This document shows positions 34,021 to 46,408 of a stretch of 56,174 bases of DNA, one piece after another. The first letter of the stretch is position 1. Every line of letters begins with the position of its first letter. A model generated the notes under the pieces. The model was given only the letters and a program-made list of their open reading frames with translations. It had not been told where the DNA came from and made no database searches. A program made the position numbers and the translations under genes. This DNA is from Sutterella sp. (GTDB taxonomy: Bacteria; Pseudomonadota; Gammaproteobacteria; Burkholderiales; Burkholderiaceae_F): contig NZ_JAUNSF010000009.1 in assembly GCF_030539355.1 (NCBI RefSeq), forward strand, positions 1-56,174, written 5' to 3'.

Positions 34021-34965
34021 TCAGTTCATGTGGACGCCTGCGTGGGCGTCGGAAGCGGTCCCGGTCTCGGGAAAGTCGATCGGCAGCGCGTCCTTCCAGG
34101 CCTCGCGGAAGAGCAGGATGATCGCCTCAAGGCCGGCGTGGCGGATGGCGAGCTTCGCCTTCGCCTGCACGACGGGCTTCGCGTGGAAGGCGACGCCGAG
34201 GCCGGCGGCCTGGATCATCTCGAGGTCGTTCGCGCCGTCGCCGCAGCAGAGGGCCTGATCAATGGACGCGCCGAGGAGCTGCGTGAGCACCTCGACCGCG
34301 CGGCGCTTGCCGTCGGCGTCAAGGATCTTTCCGCCCGCCGGGCCGCGGACCTCGCCCGTGAGGCACCCGTCCTTGAGGACGAGCTCGTTGCTCACGGCGC
34401 CGGTCATGCCGAGGCGCTTCGCGATGGGGCGGGTGAGGTTGGTGAAGCCGCCCGAGACGACGTAGCACTGAATGCCGTTCCTCGCGGCGAACTTCATGAG
34501 CTCAGGCGCGCCGTGCGTGATGCGCACCGATTCGGTCGAGTGCGCGATCACGCTCTCGGGCTGGCCCTTGAGGAGCGCGACGCGGCGCTGCAGGTTCTCG
34601 GCGAAGGGCCAGTGGCCCTCCATCGCCTCGCGTGTCATGCGGCGGACTTCCTCGAGGCAGCCGGCCGCGGCGGCCATGTCGTCGATGCACTCGTTCTGGA
34701 TGAGCGTGCTGTCCATGTCGAAGAAGAACGCCCGGAAGTTCTTGATGGAGAGACCGGCGCGGACTTCGAAATAGTCGGCCTCGTGGCGCTCGGCCTCGGC
34801 GGCGAGCGCCGCGAGCCCCTCGGCGTTTTCCTCGACGCCCTCGAGGCGGAGCGACGGCTCCGTGGGACGGTAGAGAACGCGCTGCGGGCGGAGGGCCGCG
34901 ATGAGTTCGTGAAGCGGTCCGTGCTGGTGGTCAAGGTCGTGCCCGGTGAGGACGATGTCGAGCAT
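34021..34965 (-). CDS. serB: Phosphoserine phosphatase
   Basis: 314 residues. HAD enzyme: DMDST with nucleophile D83 (residues 83-87), YVVSGGFTNLT (motif II Ser), and GDGANDLEMIQAAGLGVAF (Lys/Asp motifs III-IV). The N-terminal 75 residues are the regulatory ACT-like region found in many bacterial SerB proteins. It performs the last step of serine synthesis in the cytoplasm. A GGAG ribosome binding site precedes the ATG. Confidence 0.96.
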   Translation of the reverse strand: MLDIVLTGHDLDHQHGPLHELIAALRPQRVLYRPTEPSLRLEGVEENAEGLAALAAEAERHEADYFEVRAGLSIKNFRAFFFDMDSTLIQNECIDDMAAAAGCLEEVRRMTREAMEGHWPFAENLQRRVALLKGQPESVIAHSTESVRITHGAPELMKFAARNGIQCYVVSGGFTNLTRPIAKRLGMTGAVSNELVLKDGCLTGEVRGPAGGKILDADGKRRAVEVLTQLLGASIDQALCCGDGANDLEMIQAAGLGVAFHAKPVVQAKAKLAIRHAGLEAIILLFREAWKDALPIDFPETGTASDAHAGVHMN

Positions 34966-35282: not shown

Positions 35283-36698
35283 TTACTTCTTCTGGGCATC
35301 GAGGCCGCGGGCGTAGATGTACGCCTGCTGACCGGCGATGCGGCCGAACGTGACGATGTCAGCCTGGGCGTTGCCGCCGAGGCGGTTGCCGCCGTGCACG
35401 CCGCCCGTGATTTCACCCGCGGCGAAGAAGCCGGGGATGACCTTGCCCTCGACGTTGTAGACCTGGGTGAGCGGATCGATCTTGATGCCGCCCATCGTGT
35501 GGTGCACAGCCGGGGTGATGGCGATGGCGTAGAACGGGCCCTTGTCGAGGTCACGCGGCATGTCGGCGCGGCCGAAGGCATCCTTGCCGGCGGCCTTGCC
35601 GGCCTTCCAGGCGTCCATCGAGGCCTTCAGGTCAGCGGCGGGAACGCCCATCTTGCCGGCGATCTCGTCGAGCGTGGCGCCCGTCAGGCAGTAGGACTTC
35701 TTGATGTAGCCGTTCGTCGCCTTGAGCGACTTCTGCATGTCGGAGTCGAAGAACAGGTAGGCGATGCCGTCCTTCTGCTTGAGGATGGCGGCGGAGACCT
35801 TGTCGCGGGTCTCGAGCTCGTTGTAGAAGCGCTTGCCTTCCTTGTTGATGAGGATGGCGCCGTTGCCGCGGACGGCCTCGGTGATCATGTCACCGACGCC
35901 CGGGACCACGGTCGGGTGCGTCTGGATCTGCTCCATCTGGATCAGCTGGGCGCCGATCTTCTCCGCGAGGGTGATGCCGTCGCCGGTGGCACCCTTGTGG
36001 TTCGTCGTGTCGAAGCCCTTCAGGCGGGGCACGTACTTCGCGACGAGGTCGTTGTTCGCGCCGAAGCCGCCGGCGGCGTCAACCACGGCCTTGGAGTGGA
36101 TGGTGTAGACGCCGTCCTTGCCCTTGACCTTGATGCCGACCACGGCACCGTCCTTCGTGAGGATCTCGGTGGCCTGGGTGTTCGTGCGCAGGTCAATGTT
36201 CAGGTTCTTGGCGGACGTGTAGAGGGTGCGGACAACCTCGGGGCCGACGAGCGCGCCGCCGGTCGGGCGGTGCGTACGGGGCTGGGTGGCGCCGGCCATC
36301 AGGCCGACGTCGCGGAGGTCACCGCCGTGGGCGAGGAGCCACTCGACGGACGAGGCCGACTTCTGGGCGAGCGTACGCACGAGAGCCGGGTCGTTGAGCC
36401 AGTGGCCGCCCTTCATCGTGTCGTAGAACATGATCTCGACGGAGTCCTTCGTGCCCTTGGCCTTCTGGAGCGCCGTCTCGGCGGCGTTCAGACCGCCGGC
36501 GGCACGGACGGTGTTGCCACCGACCATGGCCATCTTCTCAACGACGACGACCTTGGCGCCGAGCTCGGTCGCCTCGACGGCGGCGGAAAGACCCGCGCCG
36601 CCAGCGCCGATGACGGCGATGTCGACGTTGATGTCCTCGGCGGCGCCGGCCGTGCCAAAGCAGGCCGTGACGGCGGCTGCAACGAGAATCTTCTTCAT
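35283..36698 (-). CDS. Periplasmic fumarate-reductase-type flavoprotein (haem-free)
   Basis: 471 residues from ATG 36698 with an AAGGAG site. A Sec signal (1-19, ending GAAE) precedes the FAD fold DIAVIGAGGAGLSAAVEA. It keeps the complete soluble fumarate reductase (Fcc3) active-site set: THPT (His365 equivalent), ITEAVRGNG (Thr377/Glu378), NELETRD (Arg402), HHTMGG (His504) and GGNRLGGNA (Arg544). The Arg402 match argues for fumarate or methacrylate over urocanate, whose reductase has Tyr there. There is no haem domain, so an external cytochrome must supply electrons; the nearest is the tetraheme gene at 38112. Sec export of a flavoprotein means FAD is added outside. Confidence 0.92.
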   Translation of the reverse strand: MKKILVAAAVTACFGTAGAAEDINVDIAVIGAGGAGLSAAVEATELGAKVVVVEKMAMVGGNTVRAAGGLNAAETALQKAKGTKDSVEIMFYDTMKGGHWLNDPALVRTLAQKSASSVEWLLAHGGDLRDVGLMAGATQPRTHRPTGGALVGPEVVRTLYTSAKNLNIDLRTNTQATEILTKDGAVVGIKVKGKDGVYTIHSKAVVDAAGGFGANNDLVAKYVPRLKGFDTTNHKGATGDGITLAEKIGAQLIQMEQIQTHPTVVPGVGDMITEAVRGNGAILINKEGKRFYNELETRDKVSAAILKQKDGIAYLFFDSDMQKSLKATNGYIKKSYCLTGATLDEIAGKMGVPAADLKASMDAWKAGKAAGKDAFGRADMPRDLDKGPFYAIAITPAVHHTMGGIKIDPLTQVYNVEGKVIPGFFAAGEITGGVHGGNRLGGNAQADIVTFGRIAGQQAYIYARGLDAQKK

Positions 36699-37140
36699 GT
36701 TTGCTATCTCCTTTCTGTGTCGAAGCACGGAAGTGCGGACGGGCGCGCTTCTCTCTTCCGAAGGGACTTCCCTCCGTGCGCCCTGTCCGACAGGGACGGA
36801 TGCACTGGATGCGGCATCCTTACAAAGAGTTAATGTTAACCCTTAAGGAGGAGAAAGAAAAGGAAAATTTTCCCCACGGGCTACCTACTACAGGGTATTC
36901 AAATGTAAGACCTCTTCATTCGTTTGACCTGACTGCAGTGGCAGACGTCTGCCGTGCTGTCCAACAGGAATCGCTCTCTCAGCAGTCCGCGACTCGGAAT
37001 GTCCCGGAAAACGGCGCATTCATTTGTTGGGCAGAATATTCGTAAAATCCCTCTGCCACTAACTGGGTACTTCCGGCAAACGGGTAAAATGCTGACGTTT
37101 CGGCTTTTTTCGCCTGCCTGCCAGGCGTCTCGGAGGGATC
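36699..37140. other. Divergent intergenic region between the flavoprotein and dprA
   Basis: About 440 bp without a gene. It contains a perfect 14-bp palindrome GGCAGACGTCTGCC at 36940-36953, a GTTAATGTTAAC near 36828-36839, and the dprA ribosome binding site CGGAGGG just before 37141. The palindrome is a likely operator, for an unknown regulator. Confidence 0.45.
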
Positions 37141-38111: not shown

Positions 38112-38459
38112 TCAGGGCACCTTGTAGCCGAACTGATGGCACTGGTCGCAGAAGTTCTCGCTTTCCTGGTGCATCAGGTGGCAGTTCGTGCAGTCGAGCG
38201 TGTTGCTGTAGTGGGGCGACACGTGCGGGTTCGTGGGCTTGATGTTCTTGGTCGAGGCAACAAGCTGGTCAAGGTTGTGGCAGCCCGTGCAGTTGTCGAT
38301 CGTCGGCGTCTGCGGGTTCTTCATGTCCGGGCCGTGGCAGGACTGGCACTGCATGCCGAGCTTGACGTGCTGATCGGCGAGCTTTTCGCCGGCCTGGGCC
38401 GAGAAGGCAGTCAGGGCGAGCGCGCCCGCGAGGAGCGCGGTGAGAACGGTGCGTTTCAT
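38112..38459 (-). CDS. Periplasmic small tetraheme cytochrome c
   Basis: 115 residues from ATG 38459. Sec signal (1-23, ending SAQAG), then four CxxCH haem sites: CQSCH, CTGCH, CTNCH and CDQCH. Extra His residues (DQHVKLG, NPHVSPHYS, CHLMH) can be the distal ligands, giving bis-His haems as in Shewanella CctA/STC and the haem domain of flavocytochrome c. It lies 225 bp downstream of the Tat flavoprotein on the same strand. The expected role is to pass electrons from the quinol pool (through a NapC/CymA-like protein, not present here) to that flavoprotein. Confidence 0.93.
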   Translation of the reverse strand: MKRTVLTALLAGALALTAFSAQAGEKLADQHVKLGMQCQSCHGPDMKNPQTPTIDNCTGCHNLDQLVASTKNIKPTNPHVSPHYSNTLDCTNCHLMHQESENFCDQCHQFGYKVP

Positions 38460-38684
38460 TTGTGGGGCCTCGTGGTCTGGCGCGGTCGTCTTCGAGACTT
38501 TTGACCGCCGGGGAAAAGGATGGGGGAGGACTTTGACGGGCGGGGAACCCGTCTGTCCCGTCGACTCCGGAAAGGCCTCGGTGATCACGGGGATCTGCCT
38601 TTCCGCAGTCGCTTTGAGGTTTGGGCTGCCCGGGAGGACAAGGAGTCAAATCCTCCCGGGCAGGACCTCAAAGGAATCGTTCGA

Positions 38685-40235
38685 TTACATCTTGGCGAAG
38701 TTCTCGCCGGCGATCATGCCGAACGTGAGGGCGTCGATGACGGCCACCGTGCCGAGACGCGAGGCGCCGTGCACGCCGCCCGTGATCTCGCCGCCGGCGA
38801 AGAGGCCCTTGATCGGCTGGTGCGTCTGAGCGGAGATCACCTGAGCCTGCTCGTTGATCATCACGCCGCCCATGGTGTGGTGGATCTTCGGAGCGACTTC
38901 GATGCCGTAGAACGGGGGCTTCGAGACGTCAAGGCCGTTGCTGAACTTGAGGTTGCGGTGGAATTCCGGATCCTCGCCCTTCTTGATGAACTCGTTGTAG
39001 CGGGCGACCTGCTCAAGGAACGGGGCCTTGTTGACCTTGTAGTAGTCGGCGAGCTGCTCGAGCGTGTCGAACTTCTTCACAGTGCCCATCTCGAGCGGGA
39101 GCTTGACGAAGTTCGGGTTGATCGACTTGACGATGGCGTCGTCGGCGACGGCGATCGGGTAGTTCTCGTCGGTGCCGATGACCTTGAAGAGGGCGTCGGA
39201 CTTGATCTTGCGGCCGGCGTGCTCATCCATGAAGCGCAGACCCGTCTTGCGGTCAACGACGATGCCGTAGTCCATGCAGGCGTGGTTGGTGAAGTTCACG
39301 GAGACGCCGAAGCCCTTCTCACGCGGGTTGCAGTACGGGAGGAACTGCAGCCAGCAGAGCTGGACGGGCTGGGCGCCGATGCCGAGGGCCTTCACGAGCA
39401 CGCCGGCGGTGGCGCCGAGCTGGTTCGTGGAGTCGGTCGACGGAACGACGCGCGGATCCTGGGCCTGACGGAAGAAGATGTCGCGGGAGAAGCCGCCGGC
39501 GGCGAGCATGACGCCGAGCTTGGCGCGGACGGTCTTGGTCTTGCCGGTCTTGTTCTCGAGGTCGTCGCTCGCGAGCTTGGCGTTGAAGCGATAGCCCTCG
39601 CGGTAGGCGACGCCGACCACGGCGCCGTTCTCGACGATGAAGTCATCGAACTTGGCACGGGTCATGACCGTGACGTTCTTTTCCTTCTTGATGGCCTCGT
39701 ACATCGGGCGGATGTAGCCCGAGCCCGTGCCGGCCTTGATCTCATAGGAGCGCGGCACGGAGTGGCCGGCCTCGAAGAGCATCTTGTTGGGAACGAACTC
39801 GGCGCCCGTCTCCTCGACGAACTTGATCGTGTCGTTGCAGCGGTCGGCGATGACGCCGAGGAGGTTCGGGTAGTTGATGCCGAGACCGTCCTTCAGGCAG
39901 TCGGCGATGAAGAGCTCCTTGCTGTCCTTGATGCCCTGGGCGGCCTGGACGGGGTTGACCGGGCAGGCGACGTTGCCGCCGCAGATCGCGGAGTTGCCGC
40001 CGACGACGCTCATCTTCTCGAGCATCAGGACGGACTTGCCGCCGCGGGCGGCCTTGAGGGCGCAGGCCATGCCGGCGAAGCCCGAGCCGATGATGACAAC
40101 GTCGTACTCACCGTCGAACTTCTGGACCTGGGAGGCGGGGATGCCGGCGTTGGCGGCGGCGCTCGCCATCAGGGAGGCGGCGAGAGCGGCGCCCGACTTG
40201 AGCATGTTGCGGCGGTTGAGATTGATTTCAGACAT
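38685..40235 (-). CDS. Tat-exported flavocytochrome-c-type reductase flavoprotein
   Basis: 516 residues. A Tat signal (NRRNMLKSGAALAASL, residues 8-23, cleavage near ANAG) precedes the FAD fold DVVIIGSGFAGMACALKAA. It keeps HHTMGG (His504 equivalent), GGVHGASRLG (Arg544) and the Arg402 equivalent in RFMDEHAGRK. It lacks THPT and TEAVRG, which hold one substrate carboxylate in fumarate reductase, and has FLPYCNP and VNFTNHACMDYG there. So it likely reduces a different alpha,beta-unsaturated acid. Partner: the tetraheme cytochrome at 38112. It is divergent from the Tat aconitase. Confidence 0.93.
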   Translation of the reverse strand: MSEINLNRRNMLKSGAALAASLMASAAANAGIPASQVQKFDGEYDVVIIGSGFAGMACALKAARGGKSVLMLEKMSVVGGNSAICGGNVACPVNPVQAAQGIKDSKELFIADCLKDGLGINYPNLLGVIADRCNDTIKFVEETGAEFVPNKMLFEAGHSVPRSYEIKAGTGSGYIRPMYEAIKKEKNVTVMTRAKFDDFIVENGAVVGVAYREGYRFNAKLASDDLENKTGKTKTVRAKLGVMLAAGGFSRDIFFRQAQDPRVVPSTDSTNQLGATAGVLVKALGIGAQPVQLCWLQFLPYCNPREKGFGVSVNFTNHACMDYGIVVDRKTGLRFMDEHAGRKIKSDALFKVIGTDENYPIAVADDAIVKSINPNFVKLPLEMGTVKKFDTLEQLADYYKVNKAPFLEQVARYNEFIKKGEDPEFHRNLKFSNGLDVSKPPFYGIEVAPKIHHTMGGVMINEQAQVISAQTHQPIKGLFAGGEITGGVHGASRLGTVAVIDALTFGMIAGENFAKM

Positions 40236-40349
40236 CTTTCATTCCTTTGAAGTGTGGGGTTGGAACCTTTCGGTCCCCGCGCCGTGACCGGGCTGGTCGA
40301 AGTCCGTCAGGCGATGCAGTCATTCTGAAGTACCTCCGCTCCCCCGGAA

Positions 40350-40365
40350 CTAGACCTTGGTCTAG
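40350..40365. promoter_or_regulatory. TodT/StyR-like palindromic operator
   Basis: CTAGACCTTGGTCTAG at 40350-40365: perfect half-sites CTAGACC and GGTCTAG around TT. The 6-4-6 layout (CTAGAC-CTTG-GTCTAG) matches the StyR/TodT box type (ATAAAC-CATG-GTTTAT) at every conserved TA-AC...GT-TA position. It lies 115 bp upstream of the Tat flavoprotein start on the minus strand. A FixJ/TodT-type regulator is the natural candidate; the orphan at 7215 is one possibility. Confidence 0.5.
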
Positions 40366-40550
40366 GTCCGCCTCGACCTTTCTGCGGATCCGCTCTACGC
40401 CTTCCAGCGGATCCGGCAGCCGCCTCCCCCGGGGCATTCCGGCGGGGAAATCCATGCGGGACGGACGGAATCTCAGTGAAAAAACTGAGGAAACGCTTGC
40501 TCCCGTCGTGCATCGGCTACGAACCGACTCCGGATCAATCGCGCGGAATG

Positions 40551-40585
40551 TTGACTTCATACGTGACTACGTAGTGGGCGGTCGG
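40551..40585 (+). promoter_or_regulatory. Shared operator element, copy 1 (aconitase promoter)
   Basis: TTGACTTCA, 7 bases, CTACGTAGTGG, then xCGxTCGG. It is identical to the element at 43339-43373 at 27 of 35 positions, including TTGACTTCA and CTACGTAGTGG. TTGACT may double as a -35 box. It ends 208 bp before the aconitase ATG. Confidence 0.7.
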
Positions 40586-40793
40586 GAGAACAATGCGGGT
40601 CAGCGGATGAGTGACCCAATAGAAGCTCATCGGCTGACAGCCCCGGGGATACAGGGGTGCCATGAACTGACCGGGCGGCGGGTGAACCAATTGTTTCTCC
40701 TCTCCCGCCGTCCGGACATTTTTCCCCGGCACTTCAGACCCTCAACGATCGGAAACGATCCGTAATAAGAAACCAGAGACCAAGAGAAAGAAC

Positions 40794-43190
40794 ATGTCTG
40801 AGAAGAAGTTCACCATTTCGCGCCGTTCGCTCCTGAAGACAGCCGCCGCGGCCTCCGCCGCCGCCTCCGTGCCCGTCCTCGGCTCGACCGCGCATGCGTC
40901 GACCGCGCCCGAGACCGCGCACATCCGCGACTTCGCGATGATCGAGGCGTTCTACCGCGACTATCCGAAGCGCCTCGCCGCCGTCCGCGGCAAGCTCGGC
41001 CGTCCGCTCACGCTCGCCGAGAAGGTGATCTTCACGCATCTCTACCATCCCGAGAGCCTGCGCGAGTTCAAGCGCGGCGCCGACTACATCGAGCTCCGTC
41101 CGGACCGCGCCGGCACGCACGACATCGGCGGCCCGATGGCCATCATCCAGTTCCTCTCCTCGGGCAAGGAGCGCATTGCGCTGCCGGCCGCGCTCGTCTG
41201 CGACCACCTCGTCATGGCCAACGCCGGCGCCATCCCCGACCTCAAGGTCGCCGAGAAGGGCAATTACGAGACCTACGACTTCCTCGCCCGCGCCGCGAAG
41301 CGCTACGGCTTTGACTTCTGGCCCGCCGGCGCCGGCATCTGCCACCAGGTGTTCATGGAGAACTACAACTTCCCGGGCGGCATGATGCTCGTCACGGACA
41401 GCCACACCCCGACCGCCGGCGGCATGGGCATGCTCGCGATCGGCGTGGGCGGCGCTGACCTCGTCGACGGCCTGATGGGCATGGAGTGGGAGCTCAAGAT
41501 GCCGAAGTTGATCGGCGTCAAGCTCACGGGCGAGCTCTCCGGCTGGACCTCCCCGAAGGACGTGATCCTCAAGCTCACCGGCATTCTCTCCACCAAGGGC
41601 GGCACGAACGCCATCATCGAGTTCTTCGGCGAAGGCACGAAGGCCCTCTCCGCCACCGGCAAGGCCACGATCTGCAACATGGGCGCCGAGACGGGCGCCA
41701 CGACCTCGGTCTTCCCGTTCGATGACTCGATGGTCCGCTACCTCAACGCCACGGGCCGCGAGGCGGTCTCGAACCTCGCCAAGGGCGTCGCCGCCGACCT
41801 GCAGGCCGACCCGGAGGTCATCGCCGACCCGGCCAAGTACTTCGACCGCGTCGTCGAGATCGATCTCTCCACGCTCGAGCCGCACATCAACGGCCCGTTC
41901 TCGCCCGACGCCGCGATGCCGATCAACACCGTCGCCGAGAAGCAGAAGGAAAAGGGCTTCCCGCAGAAGCTCGAGGTCGCCCTCATCGGCTCCTGCACGA
42001 ACTCGTCCTACGAGGACATCACCCGCGCCGCCTCGGTCGCGAAGGAAATGCTCGACAAGGGCATCGAGGTGAAGACCCCGATCATGGTCGTGCCCGGCTC
42101 GGTCCGCATCTACCAGACCCTCGAGCGCGACGGCCTGCTCGACGTCTTCAAGAAGCTCAACGCCACGGTGCTCGCCACCGCCTGCGGCCCCTGCATCGGC
42201 CAGTGGCACCGCACGACGGGCGACATGACGAAGCCCAATTCGATCATCGAGTCCTTCAACCGCAACTTCGCCGGCCGCAACGACGGCTCCACGAAGACGG
42301 CCGCCTTCCTTGCGTCGCCCGAGATCGTGATGGCGATGGCCGCCGAGGGTGACATCACCTTCAACCCGCTCGAGGGGTCGCTGCGCTCGAAGACCGGCAT
42401 CAACGTGCGCCTCTCCGCCCCGAAGGGCGAGGAGCTCCCGAGCAAGGGCTTTGTCTCCGAGATCACGGGCTGCGTGCTGCCGACCTACGAGAAGATCAGC
42501 ATGGAGGTGAGCCCCACGAATGAGCGCATCCAGCTCCTGAAGCCCTTCAAGGCCTGGGACGGCAAGGACTTCGCCGCGCTCCCGCTCCTCATCAAGGTGA
42601 AGGGCAAGTGCACGACCGACCACATCTCCCCGGGCGGCAAGTGGCTCCCGTACCGCGGCAACATCGACCGCATCTCGGACAACCTGCTCGAGCGCGGCAT
42701 CAACGCCTTCAACGGCCAGGCGGGCAAGGTCTGGAACTTCGAGACCTCGTCCTACGACACGCCGGCCAAGGTCGCCCGCTACTACCGCAACCACGATGTC
42801 TCGAGCGTGATCGTCGGTGACGACAACTACGGCGAGGGCTCGAGCCGCGAGCACGCCGCCATGGAGCCGCGCTACCTCAACGTCGCCGTGGTGCTCGCGA
42901 AGAGCCTCGCCCGCATCCACGAGTCGAACCTCAAGAAGCAGGGCGTCCTCGCGCTCACCTTCGCCGATCCGGCCGACTACGACCGCATCCGTGAGAAGGA
43001 CCGCATCTCGGTGCTCGGCCTCGCCTCCATTGCCCCGGGCAAGACCGTCACGGTCGAGCTCACGCACGAGGACGGCACGAAGGAGCAGTTCCAGGCCGCG
43101 CACTCCTACAACGAGAAGCAGCTCGGCTGGTGGCGCGCCGGCTCCGCGCTCAACTGGATCGTCGCCGAGGAGAAGAAGGCGAAGGCCTGA
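40794..43190 (+). CDS. Tat-exported (periplasmic) aconitase
   Basis: 798 residues, mitochondrial-type aconitase. A twin-arginine signal fills the N-terminus: SRRSLLK at 9-15, a hydrophobic stretch (TAAAASAAASVPVLG), and a cleavage site STAHA|S after residue 35. The 4Fe-4S cysteines are C401 (GSCTNSS), C464 and C467 (TACGPCIGQW), with the same 63/66 spacing as C358/C421/C424 of mitochondrial aconitase. CDHL, TDSHTPTAGG, NRNFAGRND, GKCTTDHISPGGKW and YGEGSSREHA supply the catalytic residues. The enzyme is therefore predicted to be active, folded with its cluster in the cytoplasm, and exported. Cytoplasmic aconitases have no such leader. Flanked by Tat flavoprotein-cytochrome pairs. Confidence 0.95.
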   Translation: MSEKKFTISRRSLLKTAAAASAAASVPVLGSTAHASTAPETAHIRDFAMIEAFYRDYPKRLAAVRGKLGRPLTLAEKVIFTHLYHPESLREFKRGADYIELRPDRAGTHDIGGPMAIIQFLSSGKERIALPAALVCDHLVMANAGAIPDLKVAEKGNYETYDFLARAAKRYGFDFWPAGAGICHQVFMENYNFPGGMMLVTDSHTPTAGGMGMLAIGVGGADLVDGLMGMEWELKMPKLIGVKLTGELSGWTSPKDVILKLTGILSTKGGTNAIIEFFGEGTKALSATGKATICNMGAETGATTSVFPFDDSMVRYLNATGREAVSNLAKGVAADLQADPEVIADPAKYFDRVVEIDLSTLEPHINGPFSPDAAMPINTVAEKQKEKGFPQKLEVALIGSCTNSSYEDITRAASVAKEMLDKGIEVKTPIMVVPGSVRIYQTLERDGLLDVFKKLNATVLATACGPCIGQWHRTTGDMTKPNSIIESFNRNFAGRNDGSTKTAAFLASPEIVMAMAAEGDITFNPLEGSLRSKTGINVRLSAPKGEELPSKGFVSEITGCVLPTYEKISMEVSPTNERIQLLKPFKAWDGKDFAALPLLIKVKGKCTTDHISPGGKWLPYRGNIDRISDNLLERGINAFNGQAGKVWNFETSSYDTPAKVARYYRNHDVSSVIVGDDNYGEGSSREHAAMEPRYLNVAVVLAKSLARIHESNLKKQGVLALTFADPADYDRIREKDRISVLGLASIAPGKTVTVELTHEDGTKEQFQAAHSYNEKQLGWWRAGSALNWIVAEEKKAKA

Positions 43191-43291
43191 TTCCCCTCCG
43201 GGCGAGCCCGGAAAGCCGCGCGTCCCCGGCCCGACGGCCGCGGGTGAGACCGTCCCGCCCGGGTGCGCGCGGCCCCTGCTGAAAGCCTTTC

Positions 43292-43324
43292 AACCGTCCG
43301 CGAAACCGGCCCGCGGACGGTTTT
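43292..43324 (+). terminator. Terminator of the Tat aconitase gene
   Basis: AACCGTCCGCG (43292-43302) pairs perfectly with CGCGGACGGTT (43312-43322), followed by TTTTC. The next gene therefore has its own promoter. Confidence 0.85.
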
Positions 43325-43338
43325 CAAATCCCCGAACC

Positions 43339-43373
43339 TTGACTTCACTACGTACTACGTAGTGGTCGATCGG
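43339..43373 (+). promoter_or_regulatory. Shared operator element, copy 2 (TcuA-like flavoprotein promoter)
   Basis: A near-perfect 19-bp palindrome CACTACGTA-C-TACGTAGTG (43346-43364) follows TTGACTTCA (43339-43347). It matches copy 1 at 40551 at 27 of 35 bases. It ends 229 bp before the flavoprotein ATG, a distance similar to copy 1. The intervening 43374-43602 shows no gene; the ribosome binding site TTAGGAG precedes the start. Confidence 0.75.
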
Positions 43374-43602
43374 CCGAAAATTTAAGCGTGGAGCAAGAAT
43401 TCCTCCCCCGGACCTCCCGGGAAGGCTGAAATCCCGCGGCCCATGACCTCTCTCCCCCGGGCCCGCCGCTTCAGGCCTCTCCGGAAAGCGTCCTTCCCCA
43501 GATGGAATTCCCGCGCCACGCCTGCAAAGCCAAGAAACCGTCGCCGTCCCTTGACTCCATATTCCCCGGGGCCGGCTGAACGGACCAATTAGGAGAAAAA
43601 GA

Positions 43603-45093
43603 ATGTCCAACACGGATATGAGCCGTCGCGGTCTGCTGAAGACCTCCTTCCTCGGCGCCGCCGCCGCCGGTGTCACGGGTCTCACCGCCACCGCCGCCAA
43701 GGCCGAGCCCGCCCAGGCTGCCGATGCTGAATACGACGTCATCGTCGTCGGCGCCGGCCCCGCCGGTCTCATCACCGCCATCACCGCCCATGACCTCGGC
43801 GCCAAGGTCGCGCTCTTCGAGAAGCGTGACCGCCCGGACGGCAACGCGATCTTCGCGCTCGGCTCGATCTGCGGCTGGGGCACCCGTCACCAGAAGGAAC
43901 AGGGCATCGAGGACACCGCCGACGCGTTCTACGCGATGATGATGGATGTCTCCAAGCAGATGGGCGACAAGGCGCTCAACCGCACCTACACCGACAACAT
44001 CTCCGAGGGCATCGACTGGCTCGAGAGCGAGATCGGCGTCAAGTTCGGCAAGATCCGTCCGATGCCGTATCCGCGCCTCGGCCGCACCTGCCGCGTCCTC
44101 GGCGACGGCATCACGGGCGGCGCCCGCCTCGTGCAGTACCTCCTCGCCGCGGCCAAGAAGCGCGGCATCGAGATCAAGTACGAGCACAAGGTGATCGAGC
44201 TCATCCATGACGAGAAGTTCGCCGTCCAGGGCGTCGTGGCCCTCACGGACGACGGCCGCAAGCGCTTCCTCTCCCGCGGCGGCGTCTGCATCACCACCGG
44301 CGGCTTCTCCGCCAACCCCGAGATGGTCGACCGCTACATCGGCGGCTGGGCCACCCGCATGGTGCTGCGCGGCTCGAAGTCGACGACCGGCGAGAACATC
44401 TCGCTCACGCTCCCGCTCTACACGAAGTTCGTCAACATGGACCAGTTCCACAGCGGCCCGATCATCGGCGTGACGCATGTGAACCCGGCCGACGTTCTGA
44501 ACTCCGGCTACGGCGTCCAGGTCAACACCTCGGGCAACCGCTTCATGGACGAGAACAACACCTACGTCGTGAAGGCCCGCACCACGGCTCTCCAGACCGT
44601 TGACAACCAGGCCTGGGTGATCGTCGACAGCGACTGCTCGGTCCTCGACAAGGTCATCCCGAAGTTCGACCGTCTGCACAGCCCGTACGGCAAGGCCGAC
44701 ACGATCGAGGAGCTCTGCAAGCAGGTCAACCTCCCCGTCAAGAACGTTCAGAAGGCCGTTGACGCCTACAACAAGGCGCTCGCCGAGAACAAGCTTGACG
44801 AGATGACCCCGCCGAACACCTACAAGAAGCCTCATCCCATCGCCAAGGCTCCGTTCTACGCCGTTCCCTTCCAGGGCGGCATGACGGCCACCTTCGGCGG
44901 CCCGCTCATCAACACCCGTGCCGAGATCCAGAATCTCGACGGTGCGAGCATCCCCGGCCTCTACGCCGCGGGCAATGCCGCGGGCGGCATCTTCTACTTC
45001 AACTACGCCGGCGGCGCTCAGCTCGGTGCCGCGACCGTGTTCGGCCGCATCGCCGCCCGCGAGATGGCTGCCCGTGCCAAGAAGGCGAAGTAA
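43603..45093 (+). CDS. Tat-exported TcuA-like FAD reductase/dehydrogenase
   Basis: 496 residues. The Tat signal MSRRGLLKTSFLG (residues 6-18) leads to a cleavage site near AKAE. FAD fold: DVIVVGAGPAGLITAITAHD. Unlike the other two flavoproteins it has no HHTMGG; the same place reads GGMTATFGGPLI, followed by GLYAAGNAAGGIFYFNYAGG and GAATVFGRIAARE. This pattern, with Thr/Phe where fumarate reductase has His, recalls tricarballylate dehydrogenase TcuA (PGITFTYLG) and ketosteroid dehydrogenases. TcuA interconverts tricarballylate and cis-aconitate, which fits the aconitase beside it. The gene is 32 bp upstream of a tetraheme cytochrome gene. The substrate is a hypothesis. Confidence 0.9.
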   Translation: MSNTDMSRRGLLKTSFLGAAAAGVTGLTATAAKAEPAQAADAEYDVIVVGAGPAGLITAITAHDLGAKVALFEKRDRPDGNAIFALGSICGWGTRHQKEQGIEDTADAFYAMMMDVSKQMGDKALNRTYTDNISEGIDWLESEIGVKFGKIRPMPYPRLGRTCRVLGDGITGGARLVQYLLAAAKKRGIEIKYEHKVIELIHDEKFAVQGVVALTDDGRKRFLSRGGVCITTGGFSANPEMVDRYIGGWATRMVLRGSKSTTGENISLTLPLYTKFVNMDQFHSGPIIGVTHVNPADVLNSGYGVQVNTSGNRFMDENNTYVVKARTTALQTVDNQAWVIVDSDCSVLDKVIPKFDRLHSPYGKADTIEELCKQVNLPVKNVQKAVDAYNKALAENKLDEMTPPNTYKKPHPIAKAPFYAVPFQGGMTATFGGPLINTRAEIQNLDGASIPGLYAAGNAAGGIFYFNYAGGAQLGAATVFGRIAAREMAARAKKAK

Positions 45094-45125
45094 GAACTGA
45101 CCCCCACTGGGAAGAGAGAATCAAA

Positions 45126-45476
45126 ATGACCAAGAAGACCCTTATCGCGCTCGCCGCCGCCCTTGCGCTCGGCTCCGCTTTCACTTCCGCCACCGCCGCG
45201 GACTTCACGGCTGACTTCCATGTCTCGAAGGGCCTGAACTGCGCCACCTGCCACAAGACCGCCCCCGTCGAGGGCGCGAAGGTGAAGAAGGCCACGTGCC
45301 AGTCCTGCCACAGCTACGAGTCGCTCGCCCAGAAGACCGCCAAGGTCGAGCCGAACCCGCACTACAACCACCTGGGCGACGTGAACTGCACGGACTGCCA
45401 CAAGGGACATCAGAAGTCCGAGCTGATGTGCAACCAGTGCCATCAGTTCCAGCTCAACGTTCCTCACTCCAAGTGA
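45126..45476 (+). CDS. Periplasmic small tetraheme cytochrome c
   Basis: 116 residues with a Sec signal (1-25, ending ATAAD). Four CxxCH sites are present: CATCH, CQSCH, CTDCH and CNQCH, with further His residues (DFHVSKG, NPHYNHLG, KGHQ) for the second axial ligands. It is a clear paralogue of the cytochrome at 38112: both end in CHQF and share NPHxxxH. It is 32 bp after the TcuA-like flavoprotein, so the two form an operon with a strong terminator behind. It should be that enzyme's electron donor. Confidence 0.95.
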   Translation: MTKKTLIALAAALALGSAFTSATAADFTADFHVSKGLNCATCHKTAPVEGAKVKKATCQSCHSYESLAQKTAKVEPNPHYNHLGDVNCTDCHKGHQKSELMCNQCHQFQLNVPHSK

Positions 45477-45586
45477 TCTGGCTTTCAGTGATGCCCGTCA
45501 CTTGCTGAGTGGCTGCTCTTCGCAAGGCTGAACGAAAGAACTTCCAACCGGTTTCTTCCTAAAGGACTTTGCAGGAAGAAGAGCAA

Positions 45587-45635
45587 GGCCTTCGGATTCC
45601 GCGGTTCTCCCCGCGGGATCCGGAGGCCTCTTTTT
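45587..45635 (+). terminator. Terminator of the TcuA-like operon
   Basis: A long stem from GGCC (45587-45590) through CCGCGG to CCGCGG and GGCC (45625-45628) is followed by TCTTTTT. Confidence 0.9.
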
Positions 45636-45656
45636 ATTCACGGCACGCTGATGCGG

Positions 45657-45691
45657 AAAGGGCGCCCGGCTTCTGGCCGGACGCCCCTTTT
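45657..45691. terminator. Terminator of the GntR gene (bidirectional)
   Basis: AAAGGGCGCCCGGC (45657-45670) pairs with GGCCGGACGCCCCTTT (45675-45690), with small mismatches. T-tracts are found on both sides. Confidence 0.8.
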
Positions 45692-45715
45692 CGATGATCA
45701 GTTCCGTGCTTCGCT

Positions 45716-46408
45716 TCAGGCCGAGAGCAGGTCGATCTGTTCCTTGAGGTGCTTCGAGAGCAGATCGCGCGCGAGCTCCTCGTCGCCGCGCTGGATCGCG
45801 CGCAGCAGTTCGCGCTCCTGGCGGGCGATCGCCATGAAGAAGGCCGGGTCGTTCTGCGGCAGGTTCGAGGTGGTCTTCTCGAAGTACGTGATGAGCGCGG
45901 CCGAGAACACCTGCAGCACGCGGTTGCCGCAGGACTCGAGGAGGATCAGGTGGAACTCGCGGTCCCAGCGGTCCGCCTCGCGGGTGTTGCCGGCGTTGGC
46001 TTCGATCCTGCAGATCGCATCGTCGAGGCGCCCGAGGAGCGCCGGCGTCATGCGGCGCACGCAGAGCGGGATGATGTTCACCTCAATGAGGAGCCTCGCC
46101 TCGATGAACTCGCGGATGTCGAAGTTCGCGATGTCCATCTGCACCTGGATCTGCGAGGAGAGGTGCTTCGGGCCCATGGCGTTGACCGTCATGCCGCGCT
46201 TCGGCGCGCGGTCGACGATGCCCATCTGCGAGAGCACCGAGAGGGCCTTTCTCACCTTGTAGCGCGTCACGTTGAAGCGCTCGGCGATCTCGGCCTCGGT
46301 GTCGATGCGTCCGCCCGCCTTCGCCTGGCGAAGGATGTGCTTGTGGATGTCACGGAATAGCGTGTCCTCGTCAATCGGGGCGTTGGAGGAGAGATAGTTC
46401 TTTTCCAA
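45716..46408 (-). CDS. GntR/FadR-type (FCD domain) transcription regulator
   Basis: 230 residues. An N-terminal winged helix (about 15-75, with IAERFNVTRYKVRKALSVLSQMG) is followed by an FCD ligand-binding domain (about 90-220): FDIREFIEARLLIEVNIIPL, DRWDREFHLILLESCGN (metal/carboxylate ligand pattern DxxxH) and RQERELLRAIQRGDEELARD. FCD regulators usually sense organic acids such as lactate, citrate, malonate or tricarballylate-like ligands. It faces the TcuA-like operon and may control it. A palindrome TTTGTCGACAAA upstream of its own start differs from the CTACGTAGTGG element, so which genes it controls is open. Confidence 0.9.
   Translation of the reverse strand: MEKNYLSSNAPIDEDTLFRDIHKHILRQAKAGGRIDTEAEIAERFNVTRYKVRKALSVLSQMGIVDRAPKRGMTVNAMGPKHLSSQIQVQMDIANFDIREFIEARLLIEVNIIPLCVRRMTPALLGRLDDAICRIEANAGNTREADRWDREFHLILLESCGNRVLQVFSAALITYFEKTTSNLPQNDPAFFMAIARQERELLRAIQRGDEELARDLLSKHLKEQIDLLSA

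Follow-up and report, generated by a model that had tools for sequence, protein, structure and literature searches.

The window analysed here, the whole stretch of 56,174 nucleotides of contig NZ_JAUNSF010000009.1 from Sutterella sp., encodes an aconitase with a twin-arginine (Tat) export signal and a rebuilt substrate pocket, together with a flavoprotein and a tetraheme c-type cytochrome. We propose that these proteins constitute a two-step respiratory module lying wholly in the periplasm, in which an exported hydro-lyase of the aconitase family acts first and reduction by the flavoprotein follows, and we put the probability of this reading at about one half. Somewhat short of even odds, in our estimate, is the wider reading: that the enzyme belongs to an aconitase lineage of gut Sutterellaceae which is the first in its family to be exported, turning citrate-type acids of dietary or host origin in the periplasm into acceptors for a TcuA-like flavoprotein and its tetraheme cytochrome and giving tricarballylate or a related acid with neither uptake nor a CoA step, and that a paralogous clade with Val580 does likewise for a different acid.

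If true, specialists would be surprised by an exported aconitase branch with a remodelled pocket in bacteria most of which have no recognisable citrate cycle, and the module would be a respiration of two steps, the electron acceptor being made in the periplasm by a hydro-lyase. It would also offer candidate genes for a long-standing observation, that gut microbes convert aconitate and citrate to tricarballylate (PMC3885560). According to the same paper, gut bacteria form tricarballylate from aconitate and less so from citrate or isocitrate, and tricarballylate is both an end product formed by rat caecal bacteria and a citrate analogue present in human plasma (PMC3885560).

Organization of the locus

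Every gene listed at this locus in an earlier sequence-only reading, that is, the cytochromes, the flavoproteins, the Tat aconitase and the GntR/FCD regulator, was found (Table 1). The genes called between positions 34021 and 50562 encode a HAD phosphatase, three flavoproteins, two cytochromes, a DprA-type protein, the aconitase, the GntR/FCD regulator, MutS and an inositol monophosphatase; TcuB and TcuC, the electron transfer and transporter partners of TcuA, are not among them. Flavoprotein 43603 and the cytochrome downstream are spaced by 32 bp, and the gap between the aconitase and the flavoprotein is 412 bp, so that a reading of the three genes as a single transcript has to be qualified. 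An ortholog of the GntR/FCD regulator (91% identity) occupies the equivalent site at locus L062 of the closest relative, G061. The neighbourhood is not a chance arrangement, since the aconitase, its Tat signal and its linkage to the flavoprotein recur in other genomes and are accompanied by purifying selection.

Table 1. Features of the aconitase locus, with positions in the window.
Feature	Position	Strand	Basis
Tetraheme cytochrome, partner of the divergent flavoprotein	38112..38588	-	PF14537, four CxxCH
Divergent Tat flavoprotein of ordinary flavocytochrome-c type, likely a reductase in its own right	38685..40235	-	TIGR01813
Tat-type aconitase of the mitochondrial class, 798 aa	40794..43190	+	TIGR01340, PF10518, active-site comparison
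Tat-type TcuA-like FAD flavoprotein, 496 aa, predicted to reduce unsaturated acids	43603..45093	+	PF00890, pocket signature
Sec-type tetraheme c-type cytochrome, predicted to donate electrons to flavoprotein 43603	45126..45476	+	PF14537, four CxxCH
Terminator-like hairpin of 19 pairs, then CTTTTTATTC; closes the block	45586..45629	+	
GntR/FCD transcriptional regulator, convergent, candidate regulator	45716..46408	-	PF07729, PF00392

A putatively exported aconitase in the Sutterellaceae

Textbooks place aconitase in the cytoplasm or the mitochondrion. The genome to which the window belongs encodes two aconitases, each with an export signal. Against the aconitase_mito model TIGR01340 (equivalog cut-off 825 bits), the window aconitase scored 937 bits and the paralog 923 bits, and the Tat signal of the window enzyme was recognised by PF10518 (23.5 bits, cut-off 22.7). 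Orthologs are present in 12 of 67 Sutterellaceae genomes, three of which carry the paralog in addition. All 15 copies form one clade and have the twin arginines, bearing out the export signal claimed from the sequence alone, and the twin arginines are absent from the 20 non-exported relatives read and from both other Burkholderiales copies.

A scan of the genome contigs found 27 relatives, among which the five with at least 75% identity belong to Sutterella and Duodenibacillus and the next shares 56%; the aconitase of Sutterella wadsworthensis DSM 14016 is 88% identical. The order-wide search, in which two candidates were scored per genome listed and more distant exported copies may be missed, gave hits at E 1e-100 or better in 5 of 399 genomes; two of these lie outside the family, both without a Tat signal. 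In the open-licence literature, phrase searches for a periplasmic, Tat, exported or secreted aconitase found no paper, and none of the titles and abstract beginnings listed by looser searches describes such an enzyme. Nei-Gojobori comparison of the window gene with its G061 ortholog gave a dN of 0.106 and a dS of 0.91, and closer pairs gave 0.006 and 0.19, and 0.002 and 0.22, respectively; dN is thus far below dS, indicating purifying selection.

Citrate synthase and isocitrate dehydrogenase were searched for in the window's genome and neither was found, which makes a role of its aconitases in the TCA cycle unlikely. Among the 12 carriers, citrate synthase was not found in nine and monomeric isocitrate dehydrogenase in none. 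PF00180 occurs once in 10 of the 12, beside a LeuC-type match; by curated cut-offs, the PF00180 protein of the window's own genome is LeuB and its other two PF00330 proteins are LeuC-type. In keeping with the respiratory function first suggested, nothing in these searches pointed to a TCA role in most carriers.

Active site of the aconitase

The window aconitase is 51% identical to pig heart aconitase over 725 columns. The active site comprises 20 residues, according to PMC8184944. Of these, 19 are kept in the window enzyme, including the catalytic residues, and the three cysteines ligating the [4Fe-4S] cluster are retained as well. The individual positions compared are those which we take to make up the 20-residue list. 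The only one changed, Gln72 (pig numbering), is replaced by His in all 12 orthologs and lies in a loop that has been rebuilt (Q72H, A74I, T75G and Q77P; also N170T): eight of the nine positions from 69 to 77 are changed and fixed in 12/12 orthologs, as are positions N170, H98, I146 and G163. The three paralogs all carry R580V and H646Q. By comparison, all 20 residues are kept in each of 20 non-exported relatives. Arg447, Arg452, Arg580 and Arg644 of aconitase bind the tricarboxylate, and all four are retained in the orthologs.

Replacement of the Gln72 loop and loss of Arg580 are not what a plain citrate/cis-aconitate aconitase would predict, and citrate may therefore not be the substrate. Compared with mitochondrial-type aconitase (TIGR01340; 5acn/7acn), the window enzyme shares the cluster cysteines but adds the Tat signal and the rebuilt loop, and the Tat-bearing form occurs mostly in genomes in which no citrate synthase was detected.

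Flavoprotein 43603 and its partner cytochrome

Flavoprotein 43603 falls below the cut-offs of both the TcuA model NF006130 (225 bits, cut-off 369) and the flavocytochrome c model TIGR01813 (252 bits, cut-off 285), and matches the Cgr1 model weakly (39 bits, cut-off 340). Its best PDB matches are 1qjd and 6t85. The pocket carries the signature R252, R256, H283, H292, Y321, K324, T428 and Y468, in which G285, Y321, T428 and Y468 take the places of H365, R402, H504 and R544 of the fumarate reductase Fcc3. R256, T428 and Y468 are common to 43603 and all 17 TcuA sequences scoring above 700 bits, and agree in both alignments made; local alignment adds H283 and K324, of which H283 is alignment-dependent, being aligned in one and misaligned in the other. 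Among 30 FAD_binding_2 proteins read from the window's genome (of 60 matched stretches), 43603 alone has this signature. Its pocket thus resembles that of TcuA rather than that of fumarate reductase, and the label "TcuA-like" given to it from the sequence alone can be kept for the several shared pocket residues, as a resemblance only, since the NF006130 cut-off was missed.

Both 43603 and TcuA, an FAD-dependent tricarballylate dehydrogenase, have the FAD_binding_2 fold, but 43603 has Tyr at position 321 where TcuA has Phe, and it possesses a signal peptide and a tetraheme cytochrome partner, whereas the TcuA sequences begin near the FAD motif. In flavocytochrome c3 fumarate reductase and in urocanate reductase (TIGR01813; 1qjd, 6t85), periplasmic enzymes that also belong to FAD_binding_2, electrons come from multiheme domains or partner proteins; they differ in four pocket residues, and the window cytochrome is a separate small protein. 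That cytochrome scored 69.9 bits against PF14537 (cut-off 25), with CxxCH motifs at residues 39, 58, 88 and 102, and 45 bits against the CctA equivalog NF047727, below the cut-off of 180. A separate flavoprotein and cytochrome, as here, are also found in the two-subunit periplasmic acid reductases Mrd/Mcc of Geobacter sulfurreducens AM-1 (methacrylate reductase) and Cgr1/Cgr2 of Eggerthella; we know of no system of this type in which an exported hydro-lyase precedes the reductase. The periplasmic asparaginase AnsB of E. coli, which feeds fumarate respiration, prepares a respiratory acceptor much as we propose for the exported aconitase, although its later steps are cytoplasmic and the chemistry is different.

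Linkage across genomes

The order aconitase, flavoprotein, cytochrome is found in 4 of the 12 carriers (G000, G056, G061 and G062), and in the other eight this flavoprotein does not adjoin the aconitase; conservation of the block, raised as a check on the sequence-only reading, is thus found for the aconitase in 12 of 67 genomes and for its linkage in a third of these. In two genomes (G045 and G046), the paralogous aconitase adjoins a tetraheme cytochrome, a kinase and a flavoprotein with the same pocket signature as 43603. The two aconitase-linked flavoprotein groups may be sisters, with support of only 87/78, and a small multiheme cytochrome follows the flavoprotein orthologs in most of the neighbourhoods listed. 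One NapC/NrfH/CymA-type quinol dehydrogenase was found in each of the 12 carriers.

Twenty of the 67 genomes have a flavoprotein homolog of at least 57% identity although no Tat aconitase was detected in them, so its substrate has to be available independently of the aconitase, for example as dietary aconitate. Conversely, one aconitase carrier (G014, 87% complete) has no flavoprotein homolog closer than 44%. Over all 67 genomes the two genes co-occur (11/12 versus 20/55, P = 0.0007), which reflects only their restriction to a shared set of genera; within the 33 genomes of flavoprotein-holding genera the association disappears (11/12 versus 20/21, P = 1), and genome-level co-occurrence was rejected as evidence.

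A single clade of sensor kinases (17 sequences, support 98/98) has members beside the aconitase in one genus and beside the flavoprotein in a different one; they lie next to the aconitase alone in five genomes, to both in two and to the flavoprotein alone in three. Its value as an exclusive marker is weakened by 11 flavoprotein orthologs that adjoin kinases from outside the clade and by 7 of the 17 members that lie near neither gene, including that of the window's own genome; two of these seven adjoin another TcuA-like flavoprotein.

Proposed mechanism and alternative explanations

From the sequence data we infer the location, substrate, direction and electron path of the module as follows. 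A folded, exported [4Fe-4S] hydro-lyase of the aconitase family would dehydrate a hydroxy-tricarboxylic acid of the gut to an unsaturated acid of the aconitate type, the most likely substrates being citrate, isocitrate and close analogues; the neighbouring Tat flavoprotein would reduce the C=C bond of the product, in the simplest case converting cis-aconitate to tricarballylate. Electrons would pass from menaquinol through the single quinol dehydrogenase to the small tetraheme cytochrome and on to the flavoprotein. Where aconitate is already available, the flavoprotein would not depend on the aconitase, whose part would be to broaden the range of usable acceptors. Citrate to tricarballylate is a plausible net reaction. 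Periplasmic respiration of citrate or aconitate had been put forward from the sequence alone, and its outline gains support from the export signal, the missing TCA role in most carriers, the linkage in four genomes, the kinase clade, the quinol dehydrogenase and the TcuA-like pocket; the specific conversion of citrate or isocitrate to tricarballylate fits poorly with the loop replaced in all orthologs and the Arg580 lost in all paralogs. These same fixed changes, set against the intact active sites of the non-exported relatives and combined with the low dN/dS, argue for a rather unlikely but substantial alternative, the same two-step respiration with a substrate other than citrate, whose product the flavoprotein reduces. 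Hydroxycitrate, homocitrate, methylcitrate or an acid related to trans-aconitate are possible candidates, and the Arg580-less paralog possibly takes a dicarboxylate such as citramalate. However, the orthologs keep the four tricarboxylate-binding arginines, and both enzymes still pass TIGR01340.

Nutrient scavenging, in which external aconitate is hydrated by the exported enzyme, the resulting citrate or isocitrate is taken up and used in the cytoplasm (e.g., by citrate lyase) and the flavoprotein is incidental, would accommodate the eight carriers with the aconitase away from this flavoprotein, as well as G017 (L066), where the next called gene downstream on the same strand encodes a DcuC-family dicarboxylate carrier (PF03606, 95 bits, cut-off 23). 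We nevertheless consider it improbable, given the frequent failure to detect citrate synthase, the restriction of isocitrate dehydrogenase matches to LeuB-like proteins in most carriers, the kinase clade common to both genes and the occurrence of both aconitase clades near a flavoprotein-cytochrome pair. The TcuA-like pocket residues would also suit the oxidative direction, with tricarballylate oxidised to cis-aconitate as by TcuA, the aconitase hydrating the product and the electrons going to another acceptor. This is very unlikely in view of the tetraheme cytochromes in the neighbourhoods, the one quinol dehydrogenase per genome and the terminal position of tricarballylate in rat caecal bacteria (PMC3885560); in 9 of the 12 carriers, moreover, no complete TCA cycle was found that could use the product. 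Least probable of all is an ordinary cytoplasmic aconitase with a non-functional twin-arginine segment. The PF10518 score is barely over the cut-off and this model was not reported for the paralog L075, but the presence of the twin arginines in all 15 copies and their absence from the other relatives read, along with the nine carriers in which citrate synthase was not found, speak against it.

The divergent flavoprotein and cytochrome

The divergent pair was set aside as a member of the system. Its position away from the aconitase in G061 (L062) makes membership doubtful, and flavoprotein 38685 has a pocket of the ordinary type, retaining R402, H504 and R544 without H365; the earlier suggestion that it acts on a related acid is accordingly not supported. 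The protein passed TIGR01813 (404 bits, cut-off 285), as did the third flavoprotein of the region, 35283 (485 bits). For the cytochrome ORF (38588..38112), an internal Met at 38459 is the probable beginning of the Sec-type protein.

Gene block and genomic setting

The genes of the block were identified from ORF lists together with Pfam and NCBIfam matches, and the gene list of the sequence-only reading was correct. The window corresponds to contig C54 of a 3.2 Mb genome, which is 96% complete and consists of 203 contigs. The gap between the Tat aconitase and its flavoprotein is 412 bp and that between the flavoprotein and the tetraheme cytochrome 32 bp, while 558 bp separate the aconitase from the divergent flavoprotein/cytochrome pair. 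The Sec-type flavoprotein of the window, which has no adjoining cytochrome gene, closely resembles fumarate reductase of the flavocytochrome c type (1d4c, 466 bits) and retains the R/H/R triad.

Coordinates of features in the window or, where an L number is given, in a gene neighbourhood read from the genomes compared
Feature	Location	Strand	Identified from
Tat aconitase	40794-43190	+	ORF lists, Pfam, NCBIfam
Tat flavoprotein	43603-45093	+	ORF lists, Pfam, NCBIfam
Tetraheme cytochrome	45126-45476	+	ORF lists, Pfam, NCBIfam
Terminator-like stem, 19 pairs	45586-45629	+	
GntR/FCD regulator, convergent on block	46408-45716	minus	
Second Tat flavoprotein, divergent from aconitase	40235-38685	minus	
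Second tetraheme cytochrome, divergent from aconitase	38588-38112	minus	
Sec-type flavoprotein	35283-36728	minus	
Further TcuA-like flavoproteins beside same kinase type	L232 4087, L233 7442, L234 3382, L235 6003, L236 6022		
Second Tat aconitase (R580V), contig G000:C42	L075 8564-10951		
Asparaginase gene (PF00710)	L075 6995-8104		
FMN_bind flavoprotein	L064 6055-7824		
DcuC-family carrier (PF03606)	L066 2695-3972		

Distribution and phylogeny of the Tat aconitase

The family set comprised 67 genomes of one family code, called Sutterellaceae after its named records. Within this family the Tat aconitase is conserved, with orthologs of 69–100% identity in 12 genomes, Sutterella wadsworthensis DSM 14016 (88%) as the closest named record, and a low dN/dS (0.12 between the window and its closest relative, G061, and lower still in closer pairs). 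Three of the 12 carriers (the window's own genome, G000, as well as G045 and G046) also have a paralog at 53–54%. Twin arginines were found near the N terminus of all 15 copies, the remaining signal being masked in G014, and at that place in none of 20 non-exported relatives from Bacteroidota, Bdellovibrionota, Melainabacteria, and others; two further loci, L018 and L031, fall outside this count. In a tree that also includes these 20 relatives and pig aconitase, the 15 Tat copies form one clade (SH-aLRT 99), within which clade 1 (12 rows) and clade 2 (3 rows) each have a support of 100. The mitochondrial-type aconitases of two other Burkholderiales genomes (L226 in G203 and L227 in G405) lack a Tat signal and have Val74 and Leu75, with standard residues at the remaining compared sites.

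The aconitase pocket

An excerpt of PMC8184944 gives aconitase a catalytic serine 642, three cysteines, and 20 active-site residues. The window protein is 51% identical to pig aconitase, whose numbering is used here, and clade 1 keeps all cluster cysteines as well as D100, H101, H147, D165, S166, H167, N258, E262, N446, R447, R452, D568, R580, S642, S643, and R644. Q72 is replaced by His in 12/12 clade 1 proteins and residues 69–77 are rebuilt, and it is chiefly on this pocket that the analysis departs from the sequence-only reading. In aconitase, Gln72 and Arg580 contact the substrate. Of 221 columns invariant across 21 non-exported sequences, 20 carry a different, fixed residue in clade 1; eight of these fall within residues 69–77, and other fixed changes include H98V, I103V, I146C, G163V, and N170T. 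In clade 2, 21 of the 221 columns are altered, with R580V and H646Q in all three proteins and Q72 replaced by Glu in two. Because constraint is strong, the pocket looks re-made instead of decayed, and pending assay the protein should be named a predicted exported aconitase-family hydro-lyase.

Judged by gene content, there appears to be no citrate cycle in which this enzyme could act. Citrate synthase was detected in three of the 12 carriers, all of one genus, by a search that, as a control, recovered it from 13 of 14 known genomes, and monomeric IDH was found in none of the 12. PF00180 is represented by one copy in 10 carriers and two in G011 and was not found in G014; in all 11 carriers that have it, one copy lies at most about 3 kb from a LeuC-sized PF00330 match. 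In the window's genome the PF00180 protein is LeuB (TIGR00169, 524 against a cut-off of 353) and the remaining two PF00330 proteins are large subunits of isopropylmalate dehydratase (TIGR00170, 760 against 560; NF009116, 668 against 531), which leaves this genome with two aconitases, each carrying a Tat signal. The matches in other carriers were classed by frame length only, by which a further PF00330 match, of 933 aa, occurs in G011 alone among carriers. A chick caecal proteome with a Sutterella massiliensis strain, a possible carrier, as excerpted, reports TCA enzyme expression for Campylobacter jejuni only (PMC11204068), which agrees in outline with an absent cycle.

The flavoprotein pocket

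In the alignment, H365, R402, H504, and R544 of flavocytochrome c3 correspond to G285, Y321, T428, and Y468 of the window flavoprotein (own numbering). R252, R256, H283, H292, Y321, K324, T428, and Y468 are identical in all 39 members of both aconitase-linked flavoprotein groups. Among 30 FAD_binding_2 proteins read in the window's genome (of 60 matched stretches), the window flavoprotein alone has this eight-residue set and 15 have the R/H/R fumarate-type triad. The 17 rows above 700 bits of TcuA, the FAD-dependent tricarballylate dehydrogenase, have R256, T428, and Y468 in common with it and, by local alignment, also H283 and K324; at 321 they carry Phe. In five related flavoproteins encoded next to the same kinase type (L232–L236), position 252 is Trp and position 324 either Val or Ile; the aconitase-linked group thus has extra basic residues, which would be expected to fit a more negatively charged substrate.

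The G018 member of these five gave the best TcuA score among five family genomes, 262 bits, below the cut-off of 369. The 60 FAD_binding_2 stretches of G000, some of them pieces of one protein, are probably a large set of reductases in 3.2 Mb, and the PF12974-type sensor kinase has 18 matches in this genome.

Gene neighbourhoods and sensor kinases

G000, G061, and G062 have the flavoprotein and cytochrome genes within 0.5 kb after the aconitase, and G056 has them in identical order after a gap of about 1.8 kb. The flavoprotein is more widespread than the aconitase: 31 of the 67 genomes have homologs of at least 57%, and in 20 of these no Tat aconitase was detected. Five genomes of a different genus have the aconitase divergent from a response regulator and a sensor kinase with a periplasmic phosphonate-binding-type domain (PF12974), with no flavoprotein at this locus. 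A tree of 48 kinases contains a 17-row clade (support 98/98), of which five lie beside the aconitase alone, two beside aconitase and flavoprotein, and three next to only the flavoprotein. The other seven are near neither gene; of these, two adjoin another TcuA-like flavoprotein, the G061 kinase is ~6 kb from the aconitase, and that of G000 is on a different contig. One sensor type is therefore found with the aconitase in one genus and with the flavoprotein in a second one. This tie between the two is suggestive, and not exclusive, since 11 flavoprotein orthologs are accompanied by kinases from other clades.

Proposed electron path

The NapC/NrfH-type quinol dehydrogenase (PF03264) is matched exactly once in each of the 12 carriers. 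Electrons in such systems usually pass from quinol through a NapC/NrfH-type protein and a tetraheme cytochrome to the flavoprotein, and by analogy the same order would apply here. The best-supported reading is a periplasmic dehydrate-then-reduce respiration, in which the exported hydro-lyase would dehydrate an acid in the periplasm and the flavoprotein would then reduce the product; location, reductase activity, and direction are what we infer. For the citrate or isocitrate, cis-aconitate, and tricarballylate of the sequence-only reading, citrate to tricarballylate would be the simplest substrate pair, but with the changed pocket the substrate may be another acid. According to an excerpt of PMC3885560, the rumen and the rat caecum are sites where tricarballylate is made from aconitate, and less so from citrate or isocitrate, and this acid also occurs in human plasma.

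Other neighbourhoods of the Tat aconitases

The clade 2 aconitase of G045 and G046 adjoins another kinase, with a flavoprotein and a tetraheme cytochrome beyond, apparently a separate second pairing. The second Tat aconitase of G000 is divergent from an asparaginase gene whose product, judged by eye, apparently has a signal peptide. In G011, which is Duodenibacillus-like, the Tat aconitase is preceded by the gene of an FMN_bind flavoprotein with an ordinary R/H/R pocket. In G017, the next called gene downstream of the Tat aconitase encodes a DcuC-family C4-dicarboxylate carrier, followed on the same strand by a LysR-like regulator (by eye) and a further gene.
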